Assembly: GCA_017642695.1 (NCBI GenBank)
Contig: JAEPQD010000001.1
Coordinates: 699,301 to 763,300 of the forward strand
Direction: 5' to 3'
DNA length: 64,000 nucleotides
Origin: Parvibaculum sp.
Lineage (GTDB): Bacteria > Pseudomonadota > Alphaproteobacteria > Parvibaculales > Parvibaculaceae
Of the stretch, positions 14,939 through 20,036 are shown piece after piece. The first letter of the stretch is position 1. Every line of letters starts with the position of its first letter. The translations under genes and the position numbers were made by a program. The notes under the pieces were generated by a model. It searched no databases. It worked only from the letters and a program-made list of their open reading frames with translations, and was not told where the DNA came from.

Positions 14939-14963
14939 GGAACGCCGCCTTCCCGGGCCCGTT
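14939..14963 (+). promoter_or_regulatory. EcfG-type promoter of the PRC-barrel gene
   Basis: GGAAC (14939-14943), 16 bases, CGTT (14960-14963): a perfect match to the alphaproteobacterial EcfG consensus GGAAC-N16/17-CGTT. The predicted start near 14970 leaves a leader of about 50 bases before the ATG at 15020. Confidence 0.85.
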
Positions 14964-15019
14964 GATACGACAAGGGTTGCGCGACCCCGCGCACCCAGAT
15001 GGCACGAAGGAGAAATACC

Positions 15020-15826
15020 ATGAAGCGGCTTTTCACGACGACCGCGCTGGTTGCCTCGATGGCTTTTGCGTCGGCGGCCTATGCGGCATCGGACGATATG
15101 CAGAATACGTCGAAAGAAGTGACGCCGGCGGAGCAGCAGGACACGCAGGCTGCGACCGAGACGCCGGAGGAACTTCTGACGGGATCTCTCAATGAAAGTG
15201 CGGACGTGCTCACCATCGACGGCGAGGCTGCCATCATGTCCGCAACGGCGATTTCCGCCCGCGACGTGATCGGCGCGAGCGTCGTCGGCCCGGACGGCGA
15301 GGAAGTCGGCGTCGTTGACGATCTGGCCCTGGCGGAGGACCGTTCCATCGAGCAGATCATCGTCGCCGACGGAGCCGTGTTCGGCTTTGGCGGCAAGGAT
15401 GTCGCCATCGACTTTCAGGGAGCATCCATAACGCGCGACGAAAACGACGAGCGCACCGTGCGGATTGGCATGACGGCCAAGGCGCTTGAGAGCGTTTCCG
15501 AGTTCGACAAGGCTCCGCTGGAAGAGTCCGGCACTCGCCTCGCCAGCACCTGGCTCGACCGCGAAGTGACGCTGGCAACGGCCGATGACGGCTCGGGCGA
15601 GGTGACCGATCTGATCATGAGCGAAAGCGGTACGGCCAGGTATGCGGTCGTGGAGTTCGGTGGTCTTCTGGAAATGGGTGACAATCAGGTCGCCGTCGAG
15701 GTGGCCGAGCTCGGCGCGGCGCCCGCCGGTGAACCGTTCAACCTCTCCATGACGCAGGACGAACTTCGCGAGGCCCCGAAGTTCCATTATGACGCCGACG
15801 AGGTTCCGCAGCAGACCGACATGTAA
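15020..15826 (+). CDS. Exported PRC-barrel domain protein
   Basis: 268 aa with a signal peptide (MKRLFTTTALVASMAFASAAYA), an acidic linker, then two PRC-barrel-like repeats: residues ~75-135 (DVIGASVVGPDGEEVGVVDDL) and ~165-225 (LASTWLDREVTLATADDGSG). PRC-barrel proteins of this exported type are common EcfG-regulated genes of unknown role, perhaps at the cell envelope. The ATG at 15020 has GAAGGAG at the right distance. A perfect EcfG promoter lies about 55 bases upstream and a strong terminator follows. Confidence 0.85.
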   Translation: MKRLFTTTALVASMAFASAAYAASDDMQNTSKEVTPAEQQDTQAATETPEELLTGSLNESADVLTIDGEAAIMSATAISARDVIGASVVGPDGEEVGVVDDLALAEDRSIEQIIVADGAVFGFGGKDVAIDFQGASITRDENDERTVRIGMTAKALESVSEFDKAPLEESGTRLASTWLDREVTLATADDGSGEVTDLIMSESGTARYAVVEFGGLLEMGDNQVAVEVAELGAAPAGEPFNLSMTQDELREAPKFHYDADEVPQQTDM

Positions 15827-15851
15827 CGTCATCCGCTGCCAAGGCGATAAG

Positions 15852-15879
15852 CCCGGCCGGTGAAACCGGCCGGGTTTTT
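15852..15879 (+). terminator. Terminator of the PRC-barrel gene
   Basis: A 10-bp GC stem (15852-15861 with 15865-15874), GAA loop, then five T. It lies 25 bases after the stop codon. Confidence 0.9.
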
Positions 15880-15939
15880 CTTTGCCGCTCGAGAATCGCG
15901 AAACGCCGCCGCGCGCTCGCTGCACGGACAGTGCGAAGG

Positions 15940-16056
15940 AAATTTTTGGGAAGAAGTAGCCCCCGATCCAGTGGGGCTTGGGGGGCGGGGATAAAACTGG
16001 ACCGGGGGGCTTGCAAAGGTTGCTGGCTCCGGGGAGACGCCACCATCGCAATTGCA
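15940..16056 (-). ncRNA. Candidate EcfG-dependent small RNA with a C-rich loop (GsrN-like)
   Basis: No credible protein is encoded here on either strand, yet a minus-strand EcfG promoter (16064-16089) points into it. The predicted transcript forms a 13-bp stem (15996-16008 with 15960-15972, one G-U pair). Its 23-base loop holds CCCCGCCCCCC and CCCC, an ideal anti-Shine-Dalgarno surface. A second C-rich stretch (CTCCCC, within 16028-16038) lies near the 5' end. Caulobacter GsrN is a sigma-T-dependent small RNA with such a C-rich target loop. The 5' end is predicted from the promoter. The 3' end is a guess, because no clean terminator is visible. Confidence 0.5.
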
Positions 16057-16063
16057 CCCAGAT

Positions 16064-16089
16064 AACGCGGGCCGGAACGGATTGGTTCC
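16064..16089 (-). promoter_or_regulatory. EcfG-type promoter with no protein gene downstream
   Basis: On the minus strand GGAAC (16089-16085), 17 bases, CGTT (16067-16064). The next minus-strand protein gene is over 1.2 kb away behind an opposing gene, so a non-coding transcript is the likeliest product. Confidence 0.7.
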
Positions 16090-16122
16090 TTCTCAGATCA
16101 AAAAAATCTGTGTGATTTGTCT

Positions 16123-17880
16123 TTAAACAAGAACCGGCAGCGAAACGGTAACGACGCAACCGGGTTCATCGACATCCATATGGGCGCGGAGCTGACGGAT
16201 CAGACCCCGAAAGAGATTGATATGGCCCTCGTCCGGGCGGTTCTCCATCAGATCCGCGAGCACGGGCTGGTCGACCTTCATGGTGAGAATGGAACCGCCT
16301 CTCGGTTGCTCGGCGAGGTCGAAATCGATCTGGGTCGCCGGATGGCCCTCAGGGGAGAGCCGCGAGGTCGCATCTGCGATCAACTCGGTGACGAGAAAGG
16401 CGAGGGTGAGGGCGGCATCGGGGCGCGCGAAAACCGGAGACGGGCAATGCATGCTCAGGACGGGGCGTCCCCACTCGCTCGAGAGGTGTCGCTCCGTCGA
16501 CTGGCAAAGGTCCTTGAGAAGGATGCTGAGGTCCACCGAGCGGAAATCGTCGCCCTGATAGAAGGCGGCGTGCACGATACCGAGTGCGTTGAGCCGCCGC
16601 TGGACGTCGAGAAAGATAGCCGCCTGTTCCGGCGTCTTGGCACGTCGGCTCTGCAGGTTGAGCAGGCTGTTCATCACCTGAAGGTTGTTCCTCACGCGAT
16701 GGTTGATCTCCCGGACAAGAGCTTTCTGGTGATCGAGTGCGGCTCGCAGGGCCTCGTCGCGCGCCTGGATCGTGTCGGCCATGGTATTGAACTTGGTGGC
16801 GACCGCCTGAACCTCCTCCGGCGCATTCGTGTCCCTCTCGACACGCGCGGTATCGTCGCCTGCTATGTAGCGGCGGATCGCCTGACGGACATTGTTCAGC
16901 GGCTCGATCACGATACGCTCCGTCGCGCGGCCGGCCGTGACACTCGCCACGATCCAGATGAGAAGCGGAAACGCGATGATGAAATAGAGAAGTGCGCGTG
17001 CCGCCGACGAAAGTTCTTCCGCATCTTGCGCGTAGATGCCGAAAATATTTCCCGGCAGCGCGACAACGACGTAAGTGCGTTTGATTGAATCCAGACCGGT
17101 TAGAACATAGGCCCCGGACATGAGCCCGGCGTCCGCCTCCCGGCTTCGTGCCGCCGGCAGCCACTCGTCGACAGGGACGCCCTTTGCGCGCTGGGCAAGT
17201 ATTGTGCCCTTGGCGTCGAGAATGGCGACGGCGGAGGCGTCGGGCAGATCCGTTTCCTGTATCGACAAGGTGAGCGAACGGGAGGGAACTTTCGCGCCAA
17301 GAATGCCTATCGCACGCCTGTCGGCGTCGTAGATCGGCAGGGTAGCAATCAGTTCCCGGTTCTGGTCCGCATCCTTTTCTGTTCCTGTTGCCGGCGGGGG
17401 AGCCCAGATAGCGAATTGCTGAACTTCAATGGCTCTTTCGAACCACTTGTCCTGCATGTCTCCGTCAGCGCCCGGACGAAGCTGCGGGGTGCGACAGACG
17501 GTCTCGCCGTCAAGTGCGATCAGGTGAAGCGATGAAATCTTGCGGTTCTGCAAAACGATACGGCGGAAAGTTTCGTCGCAGACATTGCTGTTTGACGGAT
17601 TGCCGAGGGGAAGCGCCGAAATCGTTTCGAGAAGGATGTTCAATTCCTGGAGCGCGCTGCTCTGCCGGGCGAGGATGGCTTCACCACGCGAAACGAGGGC
17701 ACTCTCCCGAAGCGACCGATTGTGAAGGGCATTGCTGTATTGGGCGATCTCCGCGGCAAGGCAAAGCGGAAGAATCGCGACCGCAAGATGGATCGCGATT
17801 CGCGTCCGAAGCGTCAGCCGTCCGCTGGGCGAGCGTCCAAAGCGTCTTAACCATTTATTGGATACGGACTCTGCTGCCAA
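16123..17880 (-). CDS. HRXXN-type sensor histidine kinase with degenerate ATPase domain, next to nepR/phyR
   Basis: 585 aa. A membrane segment (~25-48) is followed by a periplasmic sensor of ~240 residues, a second membrane segment (~290-312), a HAMP-like region (~315-370), and a HisKA_2 dimerisation helix with NHRVRNNLQVMNSLLNLQ (HRXXN). Such kinases phosphorylate PhyR in the general stress response. The ATP domain is unusual: the N-box reads ELIADA where TELVTNA is normal, and no DxGxG box is seen. It may therefore work as a phosphatase or pseudokinase on PhyR. It starts 65 bases after the nepR stop on the same strand, so the two are probably one operon. Confidence 0.88.
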   Translation of the reverse strand: MAAESVSNKWLRRFGRSPSGRLTLRTRIAIHLAVAILPLCLAAEIAQYSNALHNRSLRESALVSRGEAILARQSSALQELNILLETISALPLGNPSNSNVCDETFRRIVLQNRKISSLHLIALDGETVCRTPQLRPGADGDMQDKWFERAIEVQQFAIWAPPPATGTEKDADQNRELIATLPIYDADRRAIGILGAKVPSRSLTLSIQETDLPDASAVAILDAKGTILAQRAKGVPVDEWLPAARSREADAGLMSGAYVLTGLDSIKRTYVVVALPGNIFGIYAQDAEELSSAARALLYFIIAFPLLIWIVASVTAGRATERIVIEPLNNVRQAIRRYIAGDDTARVERDTNAPEEVQAVATKFNTMADTIQARDEALRAALDHQKALVREINHRVRNNLQVMNSLLNLQSRRAKTPEQAAIFLDVQRRLNALGIVHAAFYQGDDFRSVDLSILLKDLCQSTERHLSSEWGRPVLSMHCPSPVFARPDAALTLAFLVTELIADATSRLSPEGHPATQIDFDLAEQPRGGSILTMKVDQPVLADLMENRPDEGHINLFRGLIRQLRAHMDVDEPGCVVTVSLPVLV

Positions 17881-17945: not shown

Positions 17946-18197
17946 TTACTCCTTCTTCCGATCGCCATTGGAGTCCGACAATTGGTCAAGCAGAGCCGAA
18001 AACTCGTCGGGAATGGGCTCATTGAGAACTTTTTGATATGCTCGTCTCAGGCCGGTGCCGAGCGCTTCCCGCCGAGCACTCTGTTCGACTTTGTCGCGCG
18101 CATTTGCGGAATTGCCGTCGGATTTCGGCGCCGCCTGCTTTTCCGTTTCGTTCGCCACTTTCTCACCGCACTTTGGCGTCGGCTCCTGCACATTCAC
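17946..18197 (-). CDS. nepR: NepR-type anti-sigma factor, copy 1
   Basis: 83 aa. The conserved NepR core is GLRRAYQKVLNEPIPDEF followed by SALLDQL; flanking regions are polar and disordered, as usual. NepR binds and blocks EcfG until phosphorylated PhyR takes it away. The frame starts with GTG at 18197; a GTG at 18158, with GGTGAG just upstream, is a possible shorter start, and both keep the core. An EcfG promoter at 18245-18269 would give autoregulation. It is divergent from phyR and lies upstream of the kinase gene. Most genomes keep nepR beside ecfG; here a second copy does that. Confidence 0.9.
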   Translation of the reverse strand: MNVQEPTPKCGEKVANETEKQAAPKSDGNSANARDKVEQSARREALGTGLRRAYQKVLNEPIPDEFSALLDQLSDSNGDRKKE

Positions 18198-18361: not shown

Positions 18362-19156
18362 ATGTCGCTCGCAGATCAGATCGCCCCCCTTCTGCCCCAC
18401 TTGCGCCGGTACGCCCGTGCACTTACCGGGAGTCAGAAACGCGGGGACGCTTATGTCCGTTCCCTGCTCGAGGCGATCATCGCCGATGAAGGTATTCTCG
18501 ATCGCGAGATGGAGCCGAGGGTGGCGCTTTACCGCGCTTTCCACGCAATCTGGTCGACATCCGACATGGATGCGGCTCAGCCCGAGGAGGCGGCGGATGT
18601 GGAGCAGGTCGTCTCCAGGCGCCTTTCGCGAATGACGCCCATAAATCGTCAGGCGCTGCTTCTGACGGCCATGGAGGGTTTCAGCAATCAGGAAGCTTCT
18701 GTGATTCTGGCTGTCGATGGCGCCGAAGTGGCGACCCTTGTCGATGCGGCCTTGAAGGAAATCGACGAGCAGATCGCGACGGAGGTCCTTATCATCGAGG
18801 ATGAGCCGATCATATCGATGGATCTGGAACAGATTGTTCGCGACCTGGGGCATGAGGTCATGGCAACGGTCGTCACCCGCGACGAGGCGGTGAATGCGAT
18901 CGGGGCGAGAAAGCCCGGTCTGGTGCTTGCCGATATCCAACTTGCCGATGGAAGTTCTGGCATCGATGCCGTGAAGGACATTTTCGCTCGCTTCTCCGTT
19001 CCGGTGATCTTCATCACTGCATATCCGGAGCGGCTGCTGACCGGAGAGCGGCCGGAGCCGACATTCCTCATCACCAAACCTTTCCTCCAGAGTACGGTGA
19101 AAGCCGCCATCGGCCAGGCGCTCTTCTTCAATGCAGAGGAAAGCGCAGCTGCATGA
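18362..19156 (+). CDS. phyR: PhyR, sigma-mimicking response regulator of the general stress response
   Basis: 264 aa. Residues 1-135 mimic an ECF sigma factor: the sigma2-like part starts LADQIAPLLPHLRRYARAL and the sigma4-like part contains MTPINRQALLLTAMEGFSNQEA. Residues 142-260 are a receiver with acidic EDE at 146-148, phospho-acceptor Asp191 (LVLADIQLADGSSG), Thr219 and Lys239 (ITKPF). Phosphorylated PhyR uses its sigma-like half to capture NepR and so frees EcfG. It is flanked by two nepR genes, one divergent, and is convergent with ecfG. No EcfG consensus was found directly upstream on the plus strand. Confidence 0.96.
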   Translation: MSLADQIAPLLPHLRRYARALTGSQKRGDAYVRSLLEAIIADEGILDREMEPRVALYRAFHAIWSTSDMDAAQPEEAADVEQVVSRRLSRMTPINRQALLLTAMEGFSNQEASVILAVDGAEVATLVDAALKEIDEQIATEVLIIEDEPIISMDLEQIVRDLGHEVMATVVTRDEAVNAIGARKPGLVLADIQLADGSSGIDAVKDIFARFSVPVIFITAYPERLLTGERPEPTFLITKPFLQSTVKAAIGQALFFNAEESAAA

Positions 19157-19240: not shown

Positions 19241-19846
19241 TTAACGGGTGATCTTGTCCATTTCGCCCATGATGGCATCCGTCGTCTCGCTTACCGCCAG
19301 CGTGCTATCAGCGCGAGCCGGAAGGAGACCATTGTCGATCATCTCGTCGAGGGCCGTACGTGCTCTCGCAACGCGACTCTTGACGGTTCCAATGGCGCAG
19401 TCACAAATCTCCGCAGCCTCCTCGTAGGAGAAGCCGCCAGCGCCCACAAGGATGAGCGCTTCGCGTTGTGCGTCCGGCAAACGCATAAGGGCGCGCTGCA
19501 GATCGGAAAGCTGCATCTGATGGTCCTGATGCGCGGGCGTCGAAAGCAGGCGTTCCGCAACGGTGTCGTCCCAGTCGCCCTTGAAACGCGAACGTCGCAT
19601 TTGCGACAGGAACTGATTGCGCAGAATAACGAATACCCAGGCGCGCATGTTCGTTCCGGCCTTGTAGCGCTTGCGTGCCGCCCAGGCCTTCAGCAACGCA
19701 TCCTGCGCGAGGTCGTCCGCCATATCCGGCTTGCCGCACAGGTTGCGCGCGAAGGCGCGGAGATGCGGAATGAGCCCTTCCAGTTCTTTCTTGAAGTCGG
19801 CATCGCTCAATGGCGATGCCGACTGCATGTCTTCCCTGTCTGTCAT
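19241..19846 (-). CDS. ecfG: EcfG, ECF15-type general stress sigma factor
   Basis: 201 aa. Sigma2 (residues ~15-85) contains DDLAQDALLKAWAARKRY and MRAWVFVILRNQFLSQMRR. Sigma4 (~125-175) contains LPDAQREALILVGAGGFSYE and the HTH stretch EICDCAIGTVKSRVARAR. This sigma factor reads GGAAC-N16/17-CGTT promoters, several of which lie within 6 kb. The ATG at 19846 is chosen, 4 bases after the nepR copy 2 stop; an upstream ATG at 19867 would overlap that gene. It is held inactive by NepR and freed by PhyR. Confidence 0.95.
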   Translation of the reverse strand: MTDREDMQSASPLSDADFKKELEGLIPHLRAFARNLCGKPDMADDLAQDALLKAWAARKRYKAGTNMRAWVFVILRNQFLSQMRRSRFKGDWDDTVAERLLSTPAHQDHQMQLSDLQRALMRLPDAQREALILVGAGGFSYEEAAEICDCAIGTVKSRVARARTALDEMIDNGLLPARADSTLAVSETTDAIMGEMDKITR

Positions 19847-19850
19847 GTCG

Positions 19851-20036
19851 TCAGCTCTCGTCGCCATTGCCGAGCTGCTGAAGCAGCCTTTTGAATTCCG
19901 GCGGAATGGGTTCTTGCGCGATATCGCGATACATGTTGCGAAGCTCGCGACCAAGAACGGCGCTCCGCGCAGTTGTTTCGCGCCGGGTTTCGGCGGTCTC
20001 TCTCGGGCGCGCTCCTTTTGGTCTGTTGTCGATCAT
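19851..20036 (-). CDS. nepR: NepR-type anti-sigma factor, copy 2 (ecfG operon)
   Basis: 61 aa. The core GRELRNMYRDIAQEPIPPEF followed by KRLLQQL matches the NepR helix pair. The N-terminal 28 residues are basic and disordered. It lies immediately upstream of ecfG on the same strand with a 4-base gap, the usual nepR-ecfG operon form. Its sequence differs strongly from copy 1 outside the EPIPxEF core, so the two copies are old paralogues and not a recent duplication. Confidence 0.9.
   Translation of the reverse strand: MIDNRPKGARPRETAETRRETTARSAVLGRELRNMYRDIAQEPIPPEFKRLLQQLGNGDES

Follow-up and report, generated by a model that had tools for sequence, protein, structure and literature searches.

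A candidate EcfG-linked small RNA gene with a C-rich loop beside the general stress response locus of Parvibaculum, and a parallel in Sphingomonas and its kin

Comparative analysis of a 64,000-nucleotide stretch of Parvibaculum sp. DNA (hereafter the window) strongly supported the presence of an EcfG-linked small RNA gene with a predicted exposed C-rich loop, because EcfG-type promoter boxes recur in ten copies, the stems carry compensatory changes and the core of the loop is kept in the six full copies of one of two forms, type A. As a conserved RNA gene beside the general stress response (GSR) locus it is likewise well supported by comparison among relatives. We consider it probable that the gene belongs to the EcfG regulon and that its RNA product base-pairs with G-rich mRNA stretches under stress, where transcription, EcfG dependence, pairing, targets, the sign of regulation and any role of Hfq are what we infer. 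Alphaproteobacterial GSR loci repeatedly carrying an EcfG-driven RNA with a C-run on a stem, in at least three families that form a standing third arm of the response with one ancient origin or several, is a broader proposal to which we give even weight.

The surroundings were recognized as a GSR locus because the neighbours of the RNA are nepR, phyR, an ecfG-type sigma factor gene (Table 1) and a second NepR-like open reading frame (ORF) of 61 aa (19854-20036, minus strand) that overlaps the 5' end of the ecfG gene. The PhyR-NepR-EcfG switch is established elsewhere. The RNA lies about 2.3 kb from phyR, directly 3' of the kinase gene and on the same strand; the NCBIfam PhyK model gave 3.9e-55 for this kinase, yet scored below the cut-off of the model. 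Two further EcfG boxes were observed in the locus. One (14939-14963, plus strand) immediately precedes the PRC-barrel gene and recurs in front of its relatives in loci L017-L021, so the PRC-barrel gene is probably EcfG-driven too. The other (18438-18463, minus strand) falls within phyR but on the opposite strand, directed towards nepR. L015-L018, L020 and L021 have this box, which may drive nepR and the kinase gene or may be retained through coding constraint.

Table 1. Features of the RNA and its neighbourhood in the window
Feature	Coordinates	Strand	Basis or remark
PRC-barrel protein gene, convergent with the RNA	14999..15826	+	Pfam PRC 8e-13
Predicted small RNA, about 110 nt	15946..16057	-	5' end placed from the promoter; 3' end uncertain
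3' hairpin, 13-14 bp stem with C-rich loop	15959..16010	-	16010-15996 paired with 15972-15959
C-rich loop UUUAUCCCCGCCCCCCAAGCCCC, 23 bases	15973..15995	-	Putative seed for pairing with G-rich parts of mRNAs
5' hairpin, two helices, not C-rich	16011..16051	-	RNAalifold on six and nine sequences
EcfG-type promoter: -35 GGAAC (16085-16089), N17, -10 CGTT (16064-16067)	16064..16089	-	
AT-rich segment that adjoins the -35 box on its upstream side and overlaps the end of the kinase gene	16090..16134	-	GC 0.29
PhyK-like sensor histidine kinase gene	16123..17880	-	Pfam HisKA_2 1.4e-20, HWE_HK 1.4e-07
nepR	17946..18197	-	Pfam NepR 5.7e-13
phyR	18362..19156	+	Pfam PhyR_sigma2 4.2e-25; NCBIfam PhyR family 9.2e-111
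ecfG-type sigma factor gene	19241..19954	-	Pfam Sigma70_r2 and Sigma70_r4_2; name from locus and domains

A minus-strand EcfG promoter (GGAAC-N17-CGTT) had been proposed in an earlier sequence-only reading of this DNA, and it is present 33 bases behind the kinase stop codon in the window; the box consensus is one that we assumed from that reading and from general knowledge. The box alone (spacer 16-18) occurred seven times in the window against 1.84 expected in shuffles, and by itself such a box is weak evidence, not being rare. The same boxes were found in the ten RNA copies with a spacer of 16 or 17 bases that is variable in sequence, and in all six full type A copies GGAAC-N16/17-CGTT stands 69-73 bases ahead of the loop core. 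The AT-rich stretch upstream of the -35 box may be UP-element-like, judging by its composition; the corresponding stretch has a GC of 0.40-0.49 in the eight other copies measured.

The RNA predicted downstream of this promoter would hold two hairpins (the covariance model R1 spans 15948-16060) and a pyrimidine-rich tail 3' of the second, in which no clean T-run of an intrinsic terminator was found; the 3' hairpin may double as terminator. The stem with a 23-base, mostly-C loop that the sequence-only reading had described was recovered here as the 3' hairpin, while the 5' hairpin, which was absent from that reading's list, also covaries. No other hairpin of the window combines, as the 3' hairpin does, a stem of 11 bp or longer with a loop of 10-30 bases of which 60% or more are C; however, one or two hairpins of this kind occurred in five of 20 shuffles, and chance could account for the hairpin taken by itself. 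When an EcfG box was required no more than 130 bases ahead of such a hairpin, the window gave one instance and 200 dinucleotide shuffles gave none, under a criterion fixed after the hairpin had been seen. Single-sequence folding gave weak support, as the z-score varied with the choice of ends: it was -2.48 for 15940-16057 and -0.63 when a longer stretch was folded, while the RNA cut to its exact 113 bases scored -1.00 and was matched in folding by 36 of 200 shuffles. It is conservation that settles the matter.

A BLAST search with positions 15900-16130 (231 bases, promoter included) matched seven of 61 genomes, the genome itself included and all of them in the genus Parvibaculum. These seven type A copies comprise six full ones and that of G008, which is cut by a contig end but keeps the boxes. 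All six full copies hold the loop core CCCCGCCCCCC(CC)AAGCCCC, in which 18 bases are conserved. A second form, type B, occupies the same slot in G016, G021 and G006 behind kinases only 35-42% identical, and has an EcfG box, a 5' hairpin and then GGACCCCGACCCGGC..GCCAGGUUGGGGUCC (as in L025) closing a loop with CCCCCCGUGCCCCCCC. The type B copies were first detected through the EcfG box behind these distant kinases, and R1, which was built on type A and does not contain the promoter, matched them where the box had placed them (E 0.0016-0.012 over 178 kb); the R1 search of the relatives and the order had missed them.

Among 40 genomes of the order, a PhyR match of more than 240 residues was present in 13, of which 11 belong to the genus and two lie elsewhere at 35% identity; most of the Parvibaculum-group genomes among the 40 seem to be without this GSR locus, some of them being incomplete. 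Together with G005, whose kinase lies on a contig that starts with the kinase, these make 14 genomes with a GSR locus. The RNA was found in ten of the 14 (seven type A, three type B), and all ten RNA-carrying genomes of the order have a GSR locus. The sequence-only reading had made its case depend on close relatives keeping the stem pairing and the C-rich loop; both are kept in every full copy, but in G022 and G002, which are among the nine genomes whose kinase is 60% or more identical, the kinase gene is succeeded by a different gene and not by the RNA. No RNA was found nearby in G029 and G033, the PhyR genomes of another genus, and no EcfG box followed by a C-run was found in the stretches taken from G029, G033, G022 and G002.

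Model R2, run over the 40 genomes of the order, picked up each of the ten copies with an E of 1.2e-4 or lower, besides seven weaker matches (E 0.002-0.48) in G024, G005, G009, G027, G026 (two) and G004. Four of the seven were read: three are another two-hairpin element without an upstream EcfG box and the fourth is a fragment. This element, observed in G024, G005 and G009 (L187:382-471, minus strand; L188:416-525, plus strand; L189:468-559, minus strand), is conserved and lies opposite an open frame with no EcfG box upstream; it consists of GAACGGCCGAGAGGCCGTTC, then GGCCTCACCC..GGGTGAGGCC with an internal C-run, then a T-rich tail. In 385 genomes of the class, R2 returned G011 and the genome of the window itself, together with a weak match in G326 (E 0.012) that has no EcfG box, and R3, a model of the Sphingomonas-type RNA described below, returned two matches; absences in these searches are soft because only about ten candidates per genome were scored. 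At the gathering score, no family of Rfam 15 matched the RNA and the sole match in the window was a tRNA. The Rfam families BjrC174, Atu_C10 and CC3664 scored 13-15 bits over the stretch against cut-offs of 45-60 and were taken as chance. Our literature search found no report of a Parvibaculum small RNA.

Covariation was assessed on alignment A6, which holds nine sequences, the truncated G008 copy having been excluded from it and from alignment A4. In A6, 94.2% of pair cells form against 34.0-50.4% when the structure is slid by 1-3 columns, a comparison favoured by the fitting of A6 to the R1 structure, and both sides have changed in 16 of 28 pairs. RNAalifold on A6 gave 24 pairs, 14 of them with both-side changes. 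Within the 5' hairpin, 94.3% of cells are paired in helix 1 and 88.9% in helix 2, with both-side changes in 11 of 14 pairs; the 3' hairpin has 96.0% of cells paired over the nine sequences and both-side changes in 5 of 14 pairs. The number of independent covariation events is small, as much of the variation is that between type A and type B.

These patterns bear on two other readings of the stretch. The sequence-only reading had seen no protein gene here, and this is borne out: ORFs do overlap the RNA, and a 102-aa ATG ORF begins in the window copy, but two of the nine homologous RNAs have no ATG/GTG ORF start of at least 10 aa and the changes follow base pairing, which makes a short protein-coding gene extremely improbable. 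Alternatively, the hairpin could serve to end or stabilise the nepR-kinase mRNA, as its terminator or as an element of its 3'-UTR, and the EcfG box would then be incidental. This might be suggested by the same-strand position of the hairpin, 113-164 bases past the stop of the kinase gene, by its GC-rich stems and by its pyrimidine-rich tails. In all six full type A copies, however, the box with its varying spacer lies between kinase stop and hairpin, and neither the conserved 18-base loop core nor the covarying 5' hairpin is needed for a terminator; we therefore regard this as unlikely and prefer a separate small RNA gene.

For such a gene we propose the following mechanism. Under stress, phosphorylated PhyR would sequester NepR and so free EcfG, which would then transcribe the RNA of about 110 nt. 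The RNA would fold into its 5' hairpin and a 3' hairpin presenting the 23-base C-rich loop, and the loop, on the model of GsrN and sX13, would pair with G-rich stretches of mRNAs in the 5' leader or the ribosome-binding region. Pairing would alter translation or stability of the mRNAs and thereby provide a post-transcriptional arm of the stress response. An Hfq gene was found in all seven genomes tested; in GsrN, Hfq stabilises the full-length RNA, which is cleaved to give a stable 5' isoform.

Candidate targets were sought at katG, at genes of the GSR locus and by pattern. The stretches upstream of katG came from eight genomes, six with the RNA and two without, G025 being omitted because its katG is split over two contigs. 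No G-run was found beside the katG start in any of the eight. Each of the six genomes with the RNA does have a run of at least four G some 85-146 bases ahead of katG, in most cases terminator-like, and both genomes without the RNA have none; the offsets for L177 are about 44 bases too small owing to use of a wrong ATG. In the window's own genome the run is GGGGCGGGG at -113, a 9-base match to the complement of the loop. At least four of the six genomes have the run as one arm of a GC-rich hairpin that is followed by T's and stands above a shared AT-rich motif; in these the hairpin is probably the terminator of the upstream gene, and the motif was taken for the promoter region. The G-runs upstream of katG are not counted as support for pairing. 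As a separate observation, TTTTTAATTGTAATAATTCTAA recurs upstream of katG in L172, L174, L176, L177 and, in shortened form, L178, and is probably the site of a promoter or of a regulator. None of the three type B genomes, of which one is 57% complete, yielded a katG.

The loop was also compared with the start regions of six genes from the GSR locus in six genomes, which made 33 comparisons, with no hit for three. Three start regions, of three different genes and with some starts extrapolated, reached a pairing level attained by at most five of 100 shuffles; no pairing of GSR-gene start regions was consistent across genomes. The start region of the kinase gene has GGGGCT, complementary to AGCCCC of the loop, in six of seven type A loci and GGGGCC in the seventh, and two kinase orthologues without the RNA have GGGGGCC at the same place; judged on this match, GGGGCU in the kinase leader is a candidate target only. 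The pattern CTTGGGGGG-N0-20-ATG had 41 matches in 12 genomes, two of which were the complement of the RNA's own loop, and examination of 20 of the 41 yielded no convincing conserved start. One CTTGGGGGG match common to three genomes lay within a longer, near-identical stretch and had a short frame, and those that recurred, or nearly so, in two genomes had frames of 63, 29 and 3 aa.

That the katG and GSR-gene comparisons established no mRNA target could be interpreted in favour of a titrating RNA, whose C-rich loop would serve as a sponge for a protein or a G-rich RNA and would not regulate mRNA leaders, and the long, low-complexity, predicted exposed loop would suit that role. The core sequence of the loop is nevertheless kept within type A (AAG spacer, two C-runs), and the C-rich-loop precedents GsrN and sX13 pair with mRNAs (PMC5869019; PMC3771888). 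We hold the sponge to be rather unlikely and pairing with mRNA leaders to be the better reading.

A second C-loop RNA emerged from the PhyR loci, taken as the best 80 of 529 and leaning to relatives of the query: 33 of these 80, from Sphingomonas and its kin, carry an EcfG-like box, a hairpin like GGAUAGCGACCUUAUGCCCCCCCGCUCUCGCUAUCC and then a terminator-like hairpin with a C-rich loop. The -10 boxes vary between CGTT, GGTT, TGTT and AGTT. By a simple ORF rule, the nearest long same-strand ORF upstream encodes, in 29 of the 33 loci, a protein homologous to the Parvibaculum kinase, the rule having chosen a shorter ORF without a kinase match in the remaining four, and in 26 of the 33 the box stands 18-75 bases behind the kinase homologue. 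The Sphingomonas-type RNA thus resembles that of Parvibaculum in the box behind the kinase on the same strand, the two hairpins and the C-rich loop in a terminator-like 3' hairpin, and on comparison of the loci the slot and the design appear common to both. It differs in that the loop of its 5' hairpin also has a C-run and in sequence. R3, the model of this type (24 of the 33 sequences are in alignment A8), had no match at the RNA in the window or in five type A loci; over 58 loci (1.01 Mb) its two best matches were L105 (E 0.26) and the type B locus L049 (E 0.32), neither significant. Apart from the insignificant R3 match on type B, there was no cross-detection between the Sphingomonas-type and Parvibaculum models. 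Our literature search found no report of the Sphingomonas-type RNA, and a term search within PMC6599016 gave no mention of small RNAs.

The interest of these RNAs lies in the repeated occurrence of C-rich loops in GSR loci. There are at least three sequence families (GsrN, the Sphingomonas type and Parvibaculum types A and B), two of which (the Sphingomonas type and the Parvibaculum types) share the slot behind a PhyK-like kinase gene. Such RNAs may have a single ancient origin and have diverged past detection by the models, or they may have evolved several times. If our reading is correct, the EcfG response of Parvibaculum has an unannotated RNA arm inside its own control locus, and by the parallel the same would hold for many Sphingomonas relatives. 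It could explain repression by a sigma factor that only activates, and it would allow a test of single versus repeated origin of C-rich-loop stress RNAs in Alphaproteobacteria.

The known RNA closest to this description is GsrN, which PMC5869019 describes as controlled by sigma-T, bearing six C in a C-rich loop on its 5' side, equipped with an intrinsic terminator and targeting the katG leader; BLASTn homologues are given there for Caulobacteraceae only, and putative counterparts in Rhizobiaceae and others by position. The Rfam family RF01529 ('CC3552') is, as we infer from its length of 106, EcfG-like box, C-run and place near phyR, GsrN itself. Among the best 80 of 529 PhyR loci, a GsrN-type RNA was recognized by motif beyond phyR in 13, all of the Caulobacter group. 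RF01529 was called in seven of eight such loci scanned (L096, L098, L103, L107, L122, L124 and L128) but not in Peiella L105. In the latter, Peiella sedimenti, a GsrN-like RNA with the variant stem GCGGTGGCGGCGACGCCCCCCCGAC was observed at L105:10365-10500 (plus strand) under the RF01529 cut-off. As controls, 14 genomes were searched, of which three matched RF01529, Caulobacter vibrioides among them, and one was over the cut-off. A further observation concerns the Brevundimonas/Phenylobacterium loci L114, L118, L122 and L128, where a small lipoprotein, presumably entericidin-like, is encoded behind an EcfG box that lies to the kinase side of phyR.

The sequence-only reading had called the Parvibaculum RNA GsrN-like. 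The label holds for the EcfG-type promoter, the exposed run of about six C and the position near GSR genes, to which the length of about 110 nt can be added; it does not hold for kinship. RF01529 had no match in window positions 15800-16150 at E up to 10, and in the order it was over its cut-off (50 bits) in none of 40 genomes, with a weak match (E 0.02-0.9) in 13 of the 40 and none in the window's own genome. R2, run against 35 loci, had no match on GsrN-type or Sphingomonas-type RNAs and two insignificant matches elsewhere. The architecture also differs, as the C-loop of the Parvibaculum RNA lies in a 3' hairpin with a 13-14 bp stem and a 23-base loop, with no separate clean terminator and a 5' hairpin whose loop has no C-run, whereas the C-loop of GsrN is in its 5' half; and the Parvibaculum RNA is on the kinase side of phyR while the GsrN-type RNAs of Caulobacter-group loci lie beyond it. 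The absence of an RF01529 match and the different architecture ruled out filing the RNA as GsrN. A true GsrN orthologue diverged past recognition would share promoter type, C-run and GSR linkage, and the two best, albeit insignificant, R3 matches did fall on the GsrN-like L105 and on type B; set against the failure of RF01529 and R2 to connect the RNAs, the 3' placement of the C-loop and the opposite side of phyR, orthology appears improbable, and we retain the reading of a distinct family.

Likeness to the putative GsrN-like RNAs of Rhizobiaceae, Brucella and Bradyrhizobiaceae is by description only; these owe their name in PMC5869019 to a nearby GSR locus and EcfG site, and for some of them expression is documented there as well. 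The sX13 RNA of Xanthomonas offers a mechanistic parallel, since PMC3771888 reports for it stable stems that present apical C-rich loops, which act on mRNAs with G-rich motifs near start codons. sX13 differs in having three loops and in being gammaproteobacterial, so that the likeness is one of mechanism and not of descent. We know of no EcfG control of sX13. By analogy with GsrN, the Parvibaculum RNA likely works in the manner of that stress RNA.
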